DNA from: Candidatus Aminicenantota bacterium
GTDB taxonomy: Bacteria; Acidobacteriota; Aminicenantia; Aminicenantales; Saccharicenantaceae
Length of the DNA stretch: 64,000 nt
Assembly (NCBI GenBank): GCA_017999365.1
Contig: JAGNLW010000002.1
Location: forward strand, 43,501-107,500
Reading direction: 5' to 3'
In this document: in pieces, positions 2 through 60,822 of the stretch
Layout: every line of letters starts with the position of its first letter
Position numbering within the stretch: position 1 is the stretch's first letter
Notes under the pieces: model-generated
Databases searched by the model: none
Told to the model about the DNA's origin: nothing
Seen by the model: the letters and a program-made list of their open reading frames with translations, nothing else
Made by a program: the position numbers and the translations under genes

Positions 2-1117
2 GTGCTCATGGCCTGGCCGGACGGCCCGGCCCGCGTCCTGACCGAGGCCTGGGACCGCTCGGTCGGTTCGTTCGCCTGGACGCCCGACGGGACGAGGCTC
101 CTCGCCTCCGCTCCCGACATCGGCCAGACCTCGCTCTTCGCCGTCGACGCCAAGACCGGCCAGGCGGACAAGCTCGTCGGGAAGGGCACCGTGGCGGGCT
201 TCGCCCCCGCCGGCAACGGCGTCGTCTTCGAGCGCAACACCCTGACCTCGCCGACGGAGATCTATGTCATCGCCCCCGGCGCCGGCGAGAAGGCGCTGAC
301 CTCGGTCAACGCCGCCAAGCTCGCGGCCGTGCGGCTGGGCGAGCCCGAGCAGTTCAGCTTCAAGGGCTGGAACAACGAGACCGTCTACGGCTACATCGTC
401 AAGCCGGTCGACTTCGACGCCTCCAAGAAGTACCCGGTCGCCTTCATGATCCACGGCGGGCCGCAGGGCTCGTTCGGCAACGACTTCCACTACCGCTGGA
501 ATCCCCAGGCCTACGCCGGAGCCGGCTACGCCGCGGTCATGGTCGACTTCCACGGCTCGACCGGCTACGGGCAGGCCTTCTGCGACTCCATCCGCGGCGA
601 CTGGGGCGGCAAGCCCCTCGAGGACCTCAAGAAGGGCCTGGCCGCGGCGCTGGCCAAGTATCCCTGGATGGACGGGACGAAGGTCGGCGCCCTGGGCGCT
701 TCCTACGGCGGCTACATGATCAATTGGATCGCCGGCAATTGGTCCGACCGCTTCAAGTGCCTCATCGTCCACGACGGCAACATCGACGAGCGGGCCGCCT
801 ATTTCGAGACCGAGGAGCTGTGGTTCCCCGAATGGGACCACCTGGGCACGCCCTGGGACAATCCGCAGAGCTACGAGAAGCACAATCCGTCCAACTACAT
901 CAAGAACTGGAAGACGCCCACCCTCGTCGTCCACGGCGGTCAGGACTTCCGGGTCGTGGAGACGCAGGGCATCGGCGCGTTCAACGTCCTGCAGCGGCGC
1001 GGCATCCCGAGCAAGTTCCTCTACTTCCCCGACGAGAACCACTGGGTCCTCAAGCCGGCCAACTCCATCCTCTGGCACGACACGGTCATCGGCTGGCTCG
1101 ACCAGTGGGTCAAATAG
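2..1117 (+). CDS. S9 family peptidase (prolyl oligopeptidase type), 5' end missing
   Basis: This is the C-terminal 371 residues of a serine peptidase that cleaves short peptides; the reading frame is open at the window edge, so the N-terminal signal and most of the beta-propeller lie outside. The first ~110 residues are the last propeller blades (TPDGTRLL-type repeats). The alpha/beta-hydrolase domain follows, with HGGP at 151-154 (oxyanion region), the nucleophile Ser234 in GASYGGYM, Asp315 in GGQDFRV and His347 in DENHW. This complete triad and the order are typical of S9C/acylaminoacyl-peptidase-like enzymes. The gene ends tail-to-tail with the kinase gene. Family is clear; substrate cannot be told. 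Confidence 0.93.
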   Translation: MLMAWPDGPARVLTEAWDRSVGSFAWTPDGTRLLASAPDIGQTSLFAVDAKTGQADKLVGKGTVAGFAPAGNGVVFERNTLTSPTEIYVIAPGAGEKALTSVNAAKLAAVRLGEPEQFSFKGWNNETVYGYIVKPVDFDASKKYPVAFMIHGGPQGSFGNDFHYRWNPQAYAGAGYAAVMVDFHGSTGYGQAFCDSIRGDWGGKPLEDLKKGLAAALAKYPWMDGTKVGALGASYGGYMINWIAGNWSDRFKCLIVHDGNIDERAAYFETEELWFPEWDHLGTPWDNPQSYEKHNPSNYIKNWKTPTLVVHGGQDFRVVETQGIGAFNVLQRRGIPSKFLYFPDENHWVLKPANSILWHDTVIGWLDQWVK

Positions 1118-6210: not shown

Positions 6211-7074
6211 ATGATGAACTGGCACGGGCGGGTCCATGGCACGAAGGCGGCCTTCGCGGTCTGCGTTACGGTCGTCATCCTGTCCCTTCTGGCCGGTTGC
6301 CGGACGAAGGTCCGGACCGCTCCCCCGCCCGCTCCCGCGGCGCCCGCGGCGACGGTCTCGCCCGCGAGGCCCGGCCTCCCCGCCACTCCCGGCCCCGCGC
6401 TGGCCCGGCTCGGCTACACCGTCCAGGTCGGCGCCTTCGCCGTCGAATCCAACGCCCGGGCCTTCGCCGCGACCCTGACCGCGGCCGGTCTCGACGCCTT
6501 CTACTTCCCGGCCGGCGGGGGACTGTTCAAGGTCCGGTTCGGGGATTTTGCGTCGCGGGAGGCCGCCCGAGAGAGGGGCGCGGCCCTCCGAGCCGGGGGC
6601 CGCATCGGCGAGTTCTTCATCGTCGGCCCGGCCGACTACGCCCTGGCCCGGCCCGGCGGGCCGGCGCCGCCCGCGGCCGCGCCCTCCCCCGCCGCCGCCG
6701 AGCTCCGCGGACGACTGGCCGCCACGGCCGAGAGCTTCCTCGGGATCGAATACGTCTGGGGCGGGACTTCGAGCGAGTCCGGCTTCGACTGCAGCGGCCT
6801 GACGAGCGCCGTCTACCGGTTGAACGGGCTGGACATGCCCCGCTCCGTCGGCGAGCAGCACGCCGCGGGGACGGCGGTCGGCGCGGACCGACTGACGGCC
6901 GGCGACCTCGTCTTCTTCGCCGCTTCTCCGGGAGGACCTCTGACCCACGTCGGCATCTACGTCGGCGGCGGGGTCTTCATCCACGCTCCCGGCCGCGGCA
7001 AGACCGTCCGCCGCGAATCCCTCGGCGCCGCCTATTTCCGGGCCCGTTTCGCCGGCGCCCGGTCCTACCTCTGA
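6211..7074 (+). CDS. SPOR-NlpC/P60 lipoprotein, cell wall peptidase
   Basis: A lipoprotein of 287 residues that should bind and cut peptidoglycan in the periplasm. Starting at the ATG-ATG pair 6211/6214 gives a signal peptide with lipobox LLAGC (Cys30). A SPOR domain follows (YTVQVGAFAVESNARAFAATL, then KVRFGDF), which binds denuded glycan strands. The C-terminal NlpC/P60 domain has YVWGG, the catalytic Cys in FDCSG, His in THVGIYVG and a third polar His in FIHAP. The longer frame from 6067 is rejected because it puts ~48 non-signal residues before the lipobox. No strong ribosome binding site is visible. Likely an endopeptidase in cell division or wall turnover. Confidence 0.88.
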   Translation: MMNWHGRVHGTKAAFAVCVTVVILSLLAGCRTKVRTAPPPAPAAPAATVSPARPGLPATPGPALARLGYTVQVGAFAVESNARAFAATLTAAGLDAFYFPAGGGLFKVRFGDFASREAARERGAALRAGGRIGEFFIVGPADYALARPGGPAPPAAAPSPAAAELRGRLAATAESFLGIEYVWGGTSSESGFDCSGLTSAVYRLNGLDMPRSVGEQHAAGTAVGADRLTAGDLVFFAASPGGPLTHVGIYVGGGVFIHAPGRGKTVRRESLGAAYFRARFAGARSYL

Positions 7075-7110
7075 CCTCCGGCGGACACCGACTCCCCCGA
7101 CGTCCCCGGT

Positions 7111-7139
7111 TTGACCCCGCTCCTCCCGCTTGGGATAAT
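7111..7139 (+). promoter_or_regulatory. Promoter of the uvrA-like gene (leaderless)
   Basis: TTGACC (7111-7116), a 17 bp spacer and GATAAT (7134-7139) stand only 8 nt before the ATG at 7148. Transcription should begin at or next to the start codon, and there is no Shine-Dalgarno sequence in between. Confidence 0.65.
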
Positions 7140-7147
7140 GGGCCCCC

Positions 7148-12051
<4,904 letters not shown>

Positions 12052-57185: not shown

Positions 57186-57440
57186 TCACGACCTGCGTCC
57201 CCTTGAGTCGACGGCGCGCCTGCGATACCGGCACATATATGAGCCGAGCTTCCCGGACATGGCCGGGAGGTCCGTGGAGTTCTGGGCCGCGGGCCCGAAT
57301 TTGTTGGTGAGGAAGAAGTTCTTCAACGATTCACGGAACCCGGTTTCTTTAACAGCACTTTTCCCGGACTGGACGGAAATCGGCGAAAACAGGTCCGTTA
57401 CCTTCTTGCCCTGTCGTCCTTCCGCCCCGTAAACCTCCAC
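57186..57440 (-). CDS. Doubtful small ORF downstream of the radical SAM gene
   Basis: An 84-codon frame (GTG start) immediately downstream of the radical SAM gene on the same strand. It reads VEVYGAEGRQGKKVTDLFSP and continues with SLKNFFLTNKF, with lower GC than the surrounding genome. No ribosome binding site and no known family. The frame-shifted alternative in the same region (ARLIYVPVSQARRRLKGTQV to a stop at 57133) has genome-like codon use, so this stretch (57102-57466) may instead hold a broken gene. The call is tentative. Confidence 0.25.
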   Translation of the reverse strand: MEVYGAEGRQGKKVTDLFSPISVQSGKSAVKETGFRESLKNFFLTNKFGPAAQNSTDLPAMSGKLGSYMCRYRRRAVDSRGRRS

Positions 57441-57466: not shown

Positions 57467-58828
57467 CTATCCGCTCTGCTTCCTAAGCATGTCAACGACG
57501 GTCCTGCATCCCGCCGCGATCTCGCTCTGCCGTTGGAGGATCAGGAGCCGGTAGTAGTTCAATATGTGTTCTTCGGGATGATGTTTCCAGACCGGACAGT
57601 CGAGCTTTCTCCTCACAAGATAATGCTCGGGGCAAGCGCCCATGCAGATCGGGAGCGCGAAGCAGTCACGACACTCCAGGGCGAACGGATCGAATGAGAA
57701 CCACTCCTTCCTCCGTTCCTCCATGTCGGCCGTCGCCGGCTGCAATAAGTGGCCAATATGCTTACCGGGCAGAGTGACTCGGGCCCAGCATGCGGCCAGC
57801 CCGCCGGAGGGAGTGACGATGTGGGTCGCTCTCCGAAGCGCCCCACAGGGAAGCGAGTGGGCCATCGGAACCAGGCGATCGGGCAAGCCTCGGCGAGTCA
57901 GCTCAAGGGACGTCCTGAGGGATACCAGGGAGAACTTCTCCCTGCCCAGGCACTGATCGGCGACACAGGTGCCTGTCGAGGTGAAGGAATCGGTCATCGC
58001 CGGGTAGAGGGTGACCCTCTCGGCGATGCCTTCCTCGACGAGGAGGTCCAGTAATAGGCCGAGTGCTTCCTGGTTCTCGGCGTCGACGTTCATACGGACG
58101 TTGATATCCATGAGCCCGGAGACCGCCTTCAAGTTGTCGATGATCGTCCGGAAGGTGCCCCCTCCCGTCGCCAACGGACGCCGCAGATCGTGGACCTGCG
58201 GGGGGCCGTCGAGCGTAACTTGGGCTAAACCCACGCCGAGGCCCTTCAACCATGATGCCGTCGCCCGATCAAGCAGATAGCCGTTTGTGATTACGCTGGC
58301 CTGGTAGCTCACATCGCGGGCGGCACAAAGATCGAGGAATGCCCGGCTCAATGTGTCCACCGTCTCCTTCCTGAGCAGCGGCTCGCCTCCGTACCAGCAG
58401 ACCGACATCCGCCCCCCCCTGCGCAGCCTGTCTTCAACGAAGGCGACGAGGGCCGCCTCCACTTCACCGCCCATGTGTTCCGGCGCCGGCTCGCCCTCGT
58501 AGCAATAGGTGCACCTGAAATTGCAGGAAAGCGTCGGCAGGATGGTCAGTGACAGAAGGCTCTCGTCCTCTCGGCTCTGATGGAAGCCCCTCATGAGCTG
58601 GGACGCCTCGTTGGAGGCTTCGTCGACGAGGAATCCGTTGTGTTGGAGCAGCTGTGTCAGCCGAACCGTTCCCCTCCGAGGCGGGAGGACCGGGTTGGAA
58701 AGGACGCTTTCGACTCTCGCGGCATCGACGCCTTCCAAGGCGACGAGCCTTAGGGTCAGGAAGTTGAAGAGAATCTTTCGCCCGTCTGAAAGGGTCGCGA
58801 ACCTGTTGAATGAGGAACTCTTCAGCAT
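57467..58828 (-). CDS. Radical SAM/SPASM peptide maturase
   Basis: A 453-residue enzyme of the SPASM radical SAM group that modifies ribosomal peptides or small proteins. Residues 1-95 form a peptide-recognition-like N-terminal region (ATLSDGRKILFNFLTLRLVA, NGFLVDEASNEASQL). The SAM cluster Cys are 102, 106 and 109 (CNFRCTYCYEGE). VCWYGGEPLL, VTLDGPPQVHD and RMNVDAEN are the expected radical SAM motifs. The SPASM tail has Cys328, 347, 386, 389, 395, 399 and 411, enough for two auxiliary 4Fe-4S clusters. It follows the Cys-rich protein gene by 15 nt, so that protein is the likely substrate. No clear ribosome binding site; lower GC than the genome. Confidence 0.9.
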   Translation of the reverse strand: MLKSSSFNRFATLSDGRKILFNFLTLRLVALEGVDAARVESVLSNPVLPPRRGTVRLTQLLQHNGFLVDEASNEASQLMRGFHQSREDESLLSLTILPTLSCNFRCTYCYEGEPAPEHMGGEVEAALVAFVEDRLRRGGRMSVCWYGGEPLLRKETVDTLSRAFLDLCAARDVSYQASVITNGYLLDRATASWLKGLGVGLAQVTLDGPPQVHDLRRPLATGGGTFRTIIDNLKAVSGLMDINVRMNVDAENQEALGLLLDLLVEEGIAERVTLYPAMTDSFTSTGTCVADQCLGREKFSLVSLRTSLELTRRGLPDRLVPMAHSLPCGALRRATHIVTPSGGLAACWARVTLPGKHIGHLLQPATADMEERRKEWFSFDPFALECRDCFALPICMGACPEHYLVRRKLDCPVWKHHPEEHILNYYRLLILQRQSEIAAGCRTVVDMLRKQSG

Positions 58829-58843
58829 CTGCGGGAAGGGCCG

Positions 58844-59473
58844 TTATAACTCCGCCTGTCTCTTCTGCAAAAGGCCCCTGAGCTCCCGACCCAGATCATC
58901 GGCCGAGGTAACCTTGAACTCTTTGAAAAGCGCCTGGATGAACCGATCGTTCTTGACCTGGTTCAGCCAATCGGACCCCAGCTCCGCTCCCCACTTCGAC
59001 GAGGAGAAGCAGAAGTCGAAGCAGAACCAGCAATGCGTGATGCACTCCTGGTTGTTCACCGCCCCGCGGATTTCCTTCATCCGCTCGGCTGTGATCACCC
59101 TCGAAGTGGCCGCGCTACAAACATGAACCCCGCATTCCAGGTCGGCGCATACCTGACCTCCGATATATGCGCCGCATACAGTGCCACCGGACCTGAGCGG
59201 TCTGACTGCGAACTGCGGCTCCCGGCCGAATTCCGACTTAAACACCTCAGGCTTACGCGACTTCGGCATGAGGAGCACCTTTAGCGCTTTGACCTTATTG
59301 TCGCGAGTGGGTACTCCAATCAACCTGGCGACCTCGGGAAGGGATCTCATAGAGCGCGCTTGCGCCAGAAGCCTATTGGTCTGGGCAGCGCTCAGCCCCG
59401 CGGCGACGGCGCAGGCCTTGAGCAGCCGGTTCAGAGCGTCCCTCCGCGATACATTGGATTCCGCCATAGACAT
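58844..59473 (-). CDS. Cys-rich Tat-like protein, likely radical SAM substrate
   Basis: A 209-residue protein, not recognised as a known family. The N-terminus VSRRDALNRLLKACAVAAGL looks like a twin-arginine signal or leader. The middle has eight Cys in two groups: C100, C109, C114, C119 (VCGAYIGGQVCADLECGVHVC, one run across 99-119) and C144, C148, C151, C155 (QECITHCWFCFDFC). A helical tail follows. AAGGAGGG precedes the ATG; the radical SAM gene is 15 nt downstream and both share one promoter. In the QhpC/QhpD system a radical SAM enzyme makes Cys-to-Asp/Glu thioethers in an exported subunit; a similar role is plausible here, but the target residues are unknown. Confidence 0.7.
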   Translation of the reverse strand: MSMAESNVSRRDALNRLLKACAVAAGLSAAQTNRLLAQARSMRSLPEVARLIGVPTRDNKVKALKVLLMPKSRKPEVFKSEFGREPQFAVRPLRSGGTVCGAYIGGQVCADLECGVHVCSAATSRVITAERMKEIRGAVNNQECITHCWFCFDFCFSSSKWGAELGSDWLNQVKNDRFIQALFKEFKVTSADDLGRELRGLLQKRQAEL

Positions 59474-60250: not shown

Positions 60251-60523
60251 ATGGCCGAGTACACCGATATCGTGCCCCTGAGCGCGGCCAAGGCCCGGCT
60301 CTCGAGCCTCGTGCGCAAGGTGCGTGAGGAACACGGGATCTACGGCATCACCCACCGTGGCAAGCCTGAAGGGGTCCTAATGAGCGTCGCGGAGTACGAG
60401 ACGCTCATCGAAACGCTCGAGATCCTCAGCGACCGTGAGCTCATGGCGAGCCTCGACCGGGGGCTGGCCGACGAGAAGGCCGGCCGGCTCTACGCCCACG
60501 ACGAGGTCTTCCCCGAGAGATGA
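60251..60523 (+). CDS. Phd/YefM-family antitoxin
   Basis: A 90-residue antitoxin. The N-terminal DNA-binding part DIVPLSAAKARLSSLVRKVREEHGIYGITHRGKPEGVLMSVAEYETL, split by the usual loop, is typical of Phd/YefM; the acidic C-terminus binds the toxin. GGGAGG precedes the ATG. The stop overlaps the toxin start (ATGA at 60520-60523). Confidence 0.9.
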   Translation: MAEYTDIVPLSAAKARLSSLVRKVREEHGIYGITHRGKPEGVLMSVAEYETLIETLEILSDRELMASLDRGLADEKAGRLYAHDEVFPER

Positions 60524-60822
60524 AGCCCCCCGCCCACCGCATCCTCTATACGAGGGAGGCGAAACGGATCATCGACAAGCTCGATCCCTCCGTCCGGAAG
60601 CTCGTGCGAAAGGCCGTCGGATCCCTCGCCGTGGAGCCGGAACGAGGGAAGCCCCTGTCGCACGAACTGTCGGGTTTGCGATCGCTCCGGACGTCGGACT
60701 ACCGGATCATCTATCGCGCCAAGGGGAGCGAGCTCGTCGTCCTCATTGTGACCGTCGGGCATCGCCGGGAGGTTTACAAGCGGCTCGGCCGGCTGATCGA
60801 CCTGGCGGGCCGGAAGAAATAA
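60520..60822 (+). CDS. RelE/ParE-family toxin
   Basis: A 100-residue mRNA-interferase-type toxin of the RelE/ParE fold: ILYTREAKRIIDKLDPSVRKLVRKAV, LSGLRSLRTSDYRIIYRA and VTVGHRREVYKRL. The closing GHRREVY is the conserved catalytic region of RelE. It starts inside the antitoxin gene, which gives balanced production. Confidence 0.9.
   Translation: MKPPAHRILYTREAKRIIDKLDPSVRKLVRKAVGSLAVEPERGKPLSHELSGLRSLRTSDYRIIYRAKGSELVVLIVTVGHRREVYKRLGRLIDLAGRKK

Follow-up and report, generated by a model that had tools for sequence, protein, structure and literature searches.

Within a 64,000-nucleotide stretch of an Acidobacteriota genome (the window; contig JAGNLW010000002.1, positions 43,501 to 107,500), two genes on the minus strand probably encode a large precursor resembling those of ribosomally synthesized and post-translationally modified peptides (RiPPs) and its likely maturase, a radical S-adenosylmethionine (SAM)/SPASM enzyme that would make thioether crosslinks, after which the product would likely be exported by the twin-arginine translocation (Tat) pathway. 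The precursor gene (58844-59473, minus strand) encodes 209 residues with nine Cys, eight of them in the core, and the maturase gene (57467-58828, minus strand) encodes 453 residues; the two open reading frames (ORFs) are separated by 15 nt (58829-58843), as the initial annotation of this DNA had described. SPASM-modified Cys-rich products are of an already known kind, but the pair belongs to a scattered family that is apparently undescribed, distinguished by large precursors with an Arg-Arg (RR) leader.

The likely maturase is a radical SAM/SPASM enzyme

The enzyme matches the radical SAM model PF04055 with 55 bits (cut-off 29.5), and its SAM-binding cluster motif C102-x3-C106-x2-C109 (58502-58525, minus strand) is present in 27/27 aligned rows. 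The SPASM region (57596-57847, minus strand) spans C328 to C411 and contains seven Cys (C328, C347, C386, C389, C395, C399 and C411), invariant in the same 27 rows. The domain score together with the conservation of all ten Cys, including the seven-Cys SPASM pattern, places the enzyme among the radical SAM/SPASM proteins, in line with the auxiliary-cluster Cys that had been read from its sequence.

Structural similarity search of the enzyme model using Foldseek listed CteB, a thioether-forming ranthipeptide synthase, in first place, with an end-to-end likeness over residues 5-430 but a sequence identity of 14-16%. The N-terminal domain (residues 1-90; 58559-58828, minus strand) may resemble a RiPP recognition element (RRE); it lies inside the alignments with CteB (5-430) and TigE (1-430) and was scored as part of these. 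In addition, an extra Cys pair precedes the SPASM region as C-x6-C in 25/27 relatives; in the window enzyme it is shifted to C288/C293, in a stretch (residues 286-293; 57949-57970) that the model shows as a loop of low confidence. Relatives in viruses were found at eight loci, with identities of 20-28%.

The precursor consists of a conserved leader, a variable Cys-rich core and a conserved C-terminal segment

The precursor begins with a Tat-like RR leader (residues 1-40; 59354-59473, minus strand), followed by two groups of four Cys. The first group, C100/C109/C114/C119 (59117-59176, minus strand), has steps of five residues at C109/C114/C119, the only place where the window precursor keeps this step, whereas the second (59009-59044, minus strand) adopts the compact pattern C144-x3-C-x2-C-x3-C155. 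The C-terminal conserved segment (residues 159-209; 58847-58999, minus strand) might act as a follower. The RR N-terminus and both Cys groups stand at the positions given in the initial annotation; its count of eight Cys is right for the core and leaves out a ninth, C21, which lies outside both groups. C21 was considered as a lipoprotein Cys and rejected, being absent from the closest homologue, P0002, and preceded by residues that do not fit the lipobox motif.

The protein search with the window precursor found P0002 as the one homologue besides itself, with an identity of 52%; by region, it is 58% in the N-terminal part, 39% in the core and 58% in the C-terminal segment. P0002 shares seven of the eight core Cys, including all four of the second group, and lacks C109. 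The ring proposed for the CADLEC motif is doubtful, because the only close homologue is without this Cys, and it was rejected as a conserved site.

The family comprises at least ten members, namely the window protein and nine relatives, of 195-433 residues. Reading around relatives of the maturase revealed two precursors, one in a Desulfobacteraceae metagenome-assembled genome (MAG) (L012; 253 residues, 14 Cys) and the other in a Thermodesulfovibrionia MAG (L013; 384 residues, 18 Cys). A further member, L126 (195 residues, 8 Cys; profile E 6e-21), comes from a genome of the same phylum as L012, and five proteins of 293-433 residues (P0123-P0127) came from a final protein search. This search scored the 7995 candidates with the most shared words and was probably crowded by Pro-rich words, and the contig scan gave at least 80 loci, a lower bound, so that further members may exist. 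The window precursor has no Pfam or NCBIfam model above its cut-off, which agrees with the view that it falls outside any described family; as one of ten scattered members it is nevertheless no orphan. Among the titles listed in the literature search, none describes the family, subscription papers being mostly outside its coverage.

All ten members follow the same plan, with an RR leader, a fast-changing Cys-rich core and a conserved C-terminal segment. In the ten-row alignment the invariant columns are RR, C119, C144, C155 and L182 (window numbering). Among the six long members (L013 and P0123-P0127), identity is 49-74% over the first 80 residues and 49-76% over the C-terminal segment, compared to 12-27% for the core in 14 of the 15 pairs; the cores of P0124 and P0125 share 66%. 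Each protein has between 8 and 23 core Cys. When the window protein and P0002 are set aside, 97/124 of the Cys-to-Cys intervals in the remaining eight members are of five or six residues, and Asn and Gln are enriched 3.2-fold and 2.7-fold, respectively, at position -2 relative to Cys. A conserved leader, a variable core and a modifying enzyme encoded nearby, the features by which a RiPP precursor is recognized, are all found here.

This variability bears on another explanation, in which the protein is exported to serve in redox reactions or as a metal carrier, its core Cys ligate an iron-sulfur or other metal site, and the enzyme modifies it in another way or aids its assembly. A cluster could fit in the C-x3-C-x2-C-x3-C group, residues 126-156 have a weak match to a ferredoxin model (E 0.07, 12.9 bits against a cut-off of 163), and cofactor proteins are often Tat cargo. 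However, 8 to 23 core Cys of changing spacing in a core of such low identity are unlike a fixed site, and the search of PDB sequences with the window precursor yielded nothing at E <= 10, so we consider a metal site unlikely. Nor did the annotation's own reservation, that the Cys might be simple iron-sulfur ligands of a known protein family, find such a family above its cut-off. The search of PDB sequences with the family profile gave eight matches at E <= 10, the best at 0.043 and none meaningful, and a Tat model from the formate dehydrogenase region matched the window precursor weakly (E 0.58). A fold search with the precursor was ruled out because its model is too poor, with a predicted local distance difference test score (pLDDT) of 41.

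Precursor and maturase genes are adjacent

A precursor stands beside an enzyme of this type in all four places with readable DNA, and the enzyme is complete in three of them. At L012 the precursor lies just upstream of the enzyme, the frame of which starts 28 nt past the precursor stop with an ambiguous start codon, and at L013 the precursor is 16 nt downstream of the enzyme; both loci had been retrieved solely through the likeness of their enzymes, and no others among the 80 loci listed have E-values as low. At L126, a 25-codon frame (62-139, minus strand) located 39 nt after the precursor begins, as judged by eye, like a maturase and ends at a stop 61 nt short of the end of the contig. P0002 and the maturase P0004, which is 63% identical to the window enzyme, presumably share one contig, as the contig of each is 7013 long. 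The proposal that a maturase accompanies the candidate substrate therefore stands on an adjacency of 4/4, one case comprising a maturase-like start of 25 residues only, and no homologue with readable context was seen to lack the start of an enzyme. The product of the neighboring gene is likely to be the substrate of the enzyme.

A FastTree phylogeny of 135 enzymes places the window enzyme (P0003) and those of L012 and L013 in one clade of 33 with a support of 0.951, within which an inner clade of 32 has a support of 1.0; the other 96 locus enzymes fall outside the clade of 33. For the remaining 30 members of the clade only the protein was available, with the probable exception of P0004. In the loci of the 96 outside enzymes, some of which are short, the family profile found no member at E < 1e-10. 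For 27/96, a short Cys-rich ORF that opens with a WIVEP-like sequence lies nearby on the same strand, compared to 0/96 on the opposite strand, a pattern picked after such peptides had been seen; without the WIVEP-like start, the test for short Cys-rich ORFs does not separate the strands (67/96 and 51/96, respectively). The clade thus appears, on three full cases, to act on its own type of substrate.

At L013, an S8 subtilase gene (6385-7830; PF00082, 141 bits) follows a zf-HC2 gene and is located 128 nt upstream of the maturase. At L019, in a Defluviitaleaceae MAG, an ORF of Cys-Gly-Arg repeats (9938-10312) is located about 0.8 kb after the maturase relative.

Proposed modification and export

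In the proposed mechanism, the N-terminal domain of the enzyme (residues 1-90) would dock the precursor leader as an RRE, and thioethers would then be formed from core Cys in the cytoplasm, with the C-terminal segment possibly acting as a follower. In the eight members with regular Cys steps, we would guess that the acceptors are the Asn/Gln at -2 or nearby Asp/Glu. The thioether chemistry is suggested by analogy to related enzymes. Finally, the crosslinked protein would leave the cell by Tat, a sensible route since a crosslinked chain is hard to thread through Sec. The RR, present in 10/10 members, is followed by an apolar stretch and, in members of the L013 type, by A-x-A sites, and TatC is encoded in the genome of the window (226 bits); the RR segment may be a working Tat signal. 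The TatC match (G000:C7:315132-315764) sits in a 930-codon open frame, compared to the 208 positions of the model.

If this mechanism is right, the pair would offer a simple model, made of just two genes, in which to study how one chain receives many crosslinks from a SPASM enzyme, how the core can hold anything from 8 to 23 Cys between an unchanging leader and C-terminal segment, and whether already crosslinked chains are exported by Tat. A bolder version, which we regard as rather doubtful, holds that the precursors of 195-433 residues are an undescribed class of exported proteins, stapled by a dedicated SPASM enzyme in the cytoplasm and carried folded by Tat, and that the window member has been re-coded from a ladder with Cys at every fifth residue to the compact C-x3-C-x2-C-x3-C, giving a new ring pattern.

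Several observations weigh against crosslinking followed by Tat export. No product or activity is known for the pair, the precursor fold model is as poor as stated above, and six of the ten members are without readable DNA context. The models TIGR04463, Clo7bot, CefB, PapB and Qhp all score below their cut-offs, and the anaerobic sulfatase-maturing enzyme tops the fold matches by Z-score (23.8), though over residues 90-432 only. The weak ferredoxin match counts on the same side. Moreover, the comparison of profiles that joins the two branches of the precursor family covers just the leader (66 columns, with a probability of 98.4); further links are a weak profile match to L013 (E 1.2e-4 in its genome) and the enzyme tree, and the likeness of the C-terminal segments between the branches is visible in alignments alone. 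Lastly, the segment after the RR is only moderately hydrophobic, and A-x-A was not found in the stretch checked in P0002 and L126, so the RR could serve enzyme binding instead.

Such a docking role of the RR is part of an alternative in which the pair makes an ordinary Cys-rich RiPP, the modified core being freed by a protease from the leader and the C-terminal segment and exported as a small peptide. The nearest enzymes, by model name, act on short Cys-rich peptides, 27 of the 96 related enzymes have the WIVEP-like ORFs described above, and a subtilase gene is present at L013. The RR in every member with its apolar stretch, and the A-x-A in L013-type members, are less easily accommodated, and no protease or transporter gene was recognized adjoining the window pair. 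We therefore hold this alternative to be improbable, about as much so as a metal site, and prefer a large crosslinked protein that is likely exported by Tat.

Comparison with known systems

The best NCBIfam model for the window enzyme is TIGR04463 (rSAM_vs_C_rich), with 274 bits over residues 7-425 against a cut-off of 525; the outside-clade enzymes, by contrast, lie near the short WIVEP-start Cys-rich ORFs (27/96) and not near RR precursors. The family also resembles CefA/CefB (NF038108/NF038107) in the spacing of its Cys, which in eight of the ten members are mostly 5-6 residues apart. P0127 has a weak match to CefA (16.7 bits against a cut-off of 30), and the window protein, P0002, L012 and L013 show no match to it, while the window enzyme scores 153 bits against the CefB cut-off of 600. 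Compared to CefA/CefB, the present systems have an RR leader, a long precursor and a conserved C-terminal segment. The PapB-type model (NF047865) gives 106 bits against a cut-off of 340. Ranthipeptide-type enzymes are known mainly with short peptide substrates, and the precursors here are much longer than ranthipeptide precursors.

The QhpD family model (TIGR03906) gives the window enzyme 62.3 bits against a cut-off of 453. Because the scores stay below the cut-offs tested, the pair is not assigned to TIGR04463, CefA/CefB, PapB or Qhp. Ranthipeptides as a class are marked by a thioether from Cys to a non-alpha carbon. Links from Cys to Asp, Thr and Asn have been described among them (PMC11002830), and these would fit cores rich in Asp and Asn. 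In QhpC, three thioethers from Cys to Asp/Glu are made by the SPASM-type enzyme QhpD, and the 28-residue leader is cut by a subtilisin-like protease encoded in the operon (PMC7876137). QhpC is thereby a precedent for the stapling of a whole protein by a SPASM enzyme; the predicted system is alike in having a SPASM enzyme that would staple a leader-bearing protein in the cytoplasm, and the subtilase gene near the L013 pair is reminiscent of the protease of the qhp operon. The Cys pattern and the C-terminal segment differ from those of QhpC, and none of the other qhp genes was recognized adjoining the window pair.

Distribution and origin

The pair is rare. Among 98 relatives, none gave a match to the precursor at E <= 0.001, and its profile finds its own genome only among 396 of the phylum (E <= 0.01). 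Precursor profiles applied around L013 and L012/L126 matched 1/395, 2/395, 1/23 and 1/150 genomes, the center genome included. The enzyme profile matched 1/116 genomes at E <= 1e-100, which is the center itself, and 15/396 of the own phylum at E <= 1e-60, where the own genome scores 655 bits and the next 466. The GC content of the pair is 0.607 compared to 0.700 for window positions 1-56000, confirming that the region lies below its surroundings, and 17/590 overlapping 2-kb windows, including those over the pair itself, have a GC content equal to or lower than that of the pair. This rarity and the low GC suggest that the pair was gained horizontally or retained patchily.

The same two features would suit a horizontally acquired fragment without present function. 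Against this, neither frame is broken, no Cys of the cluster motif or the SPASM region has been lost, and seven of the eight core Cys are common to P0002. In addition, the GC content at third codon positions (GC3; 0.738 and 0.773) exceeds that at first and second positions in both genes, as in coding DNA. We regard a functionless fragment as very improbable, and a working precursor-maturase pair as the better account.

Ten weak precursor matches among relatives (L002-L011; E 0.008-0.054) were dropped, three of them containing stops. One of these loci, L003, comes from a genome of the same order and has a 49-residue frame, ending at the minus-strand match, that is similar to the C-terminal segment and to no other part. 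A three-row profile gave it an E-value of 4e-6, but the ten-row profile does not list it at E <= 1; it may be a remnant of the family.

Promoter and surroundings of the gene pair

A single sigma-70-like promoter candidate precedes the pair (59560-59531, minus strand), with 10/12 matches. The shared promoter of the initial annotation thus has one site to its name, but a weak one, because shuffled sequence yields 0.5 +/- 0.7 sites of equal quality. A third gene at 57189-57440 (minus strand) gave no Pfam match at E <= 0.01.

The host genome is 2.8 Mb in size. Genes for an amidase, a Phd/ParE-type toxin-antitoxin pair, 5S and 23S rRNA and, as judged by eye, a likely RNA-binding protein surround the pair. 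The amidase gene was matched in 1/12 other genomes of the genus, and genus synteny is uninformative. The toxin-antitoxin pair, which consists of genes for a Phd/YefM antitoxin and a ParE-family toxin, occupies 60251-60822 of the window, near the rRNA genes.
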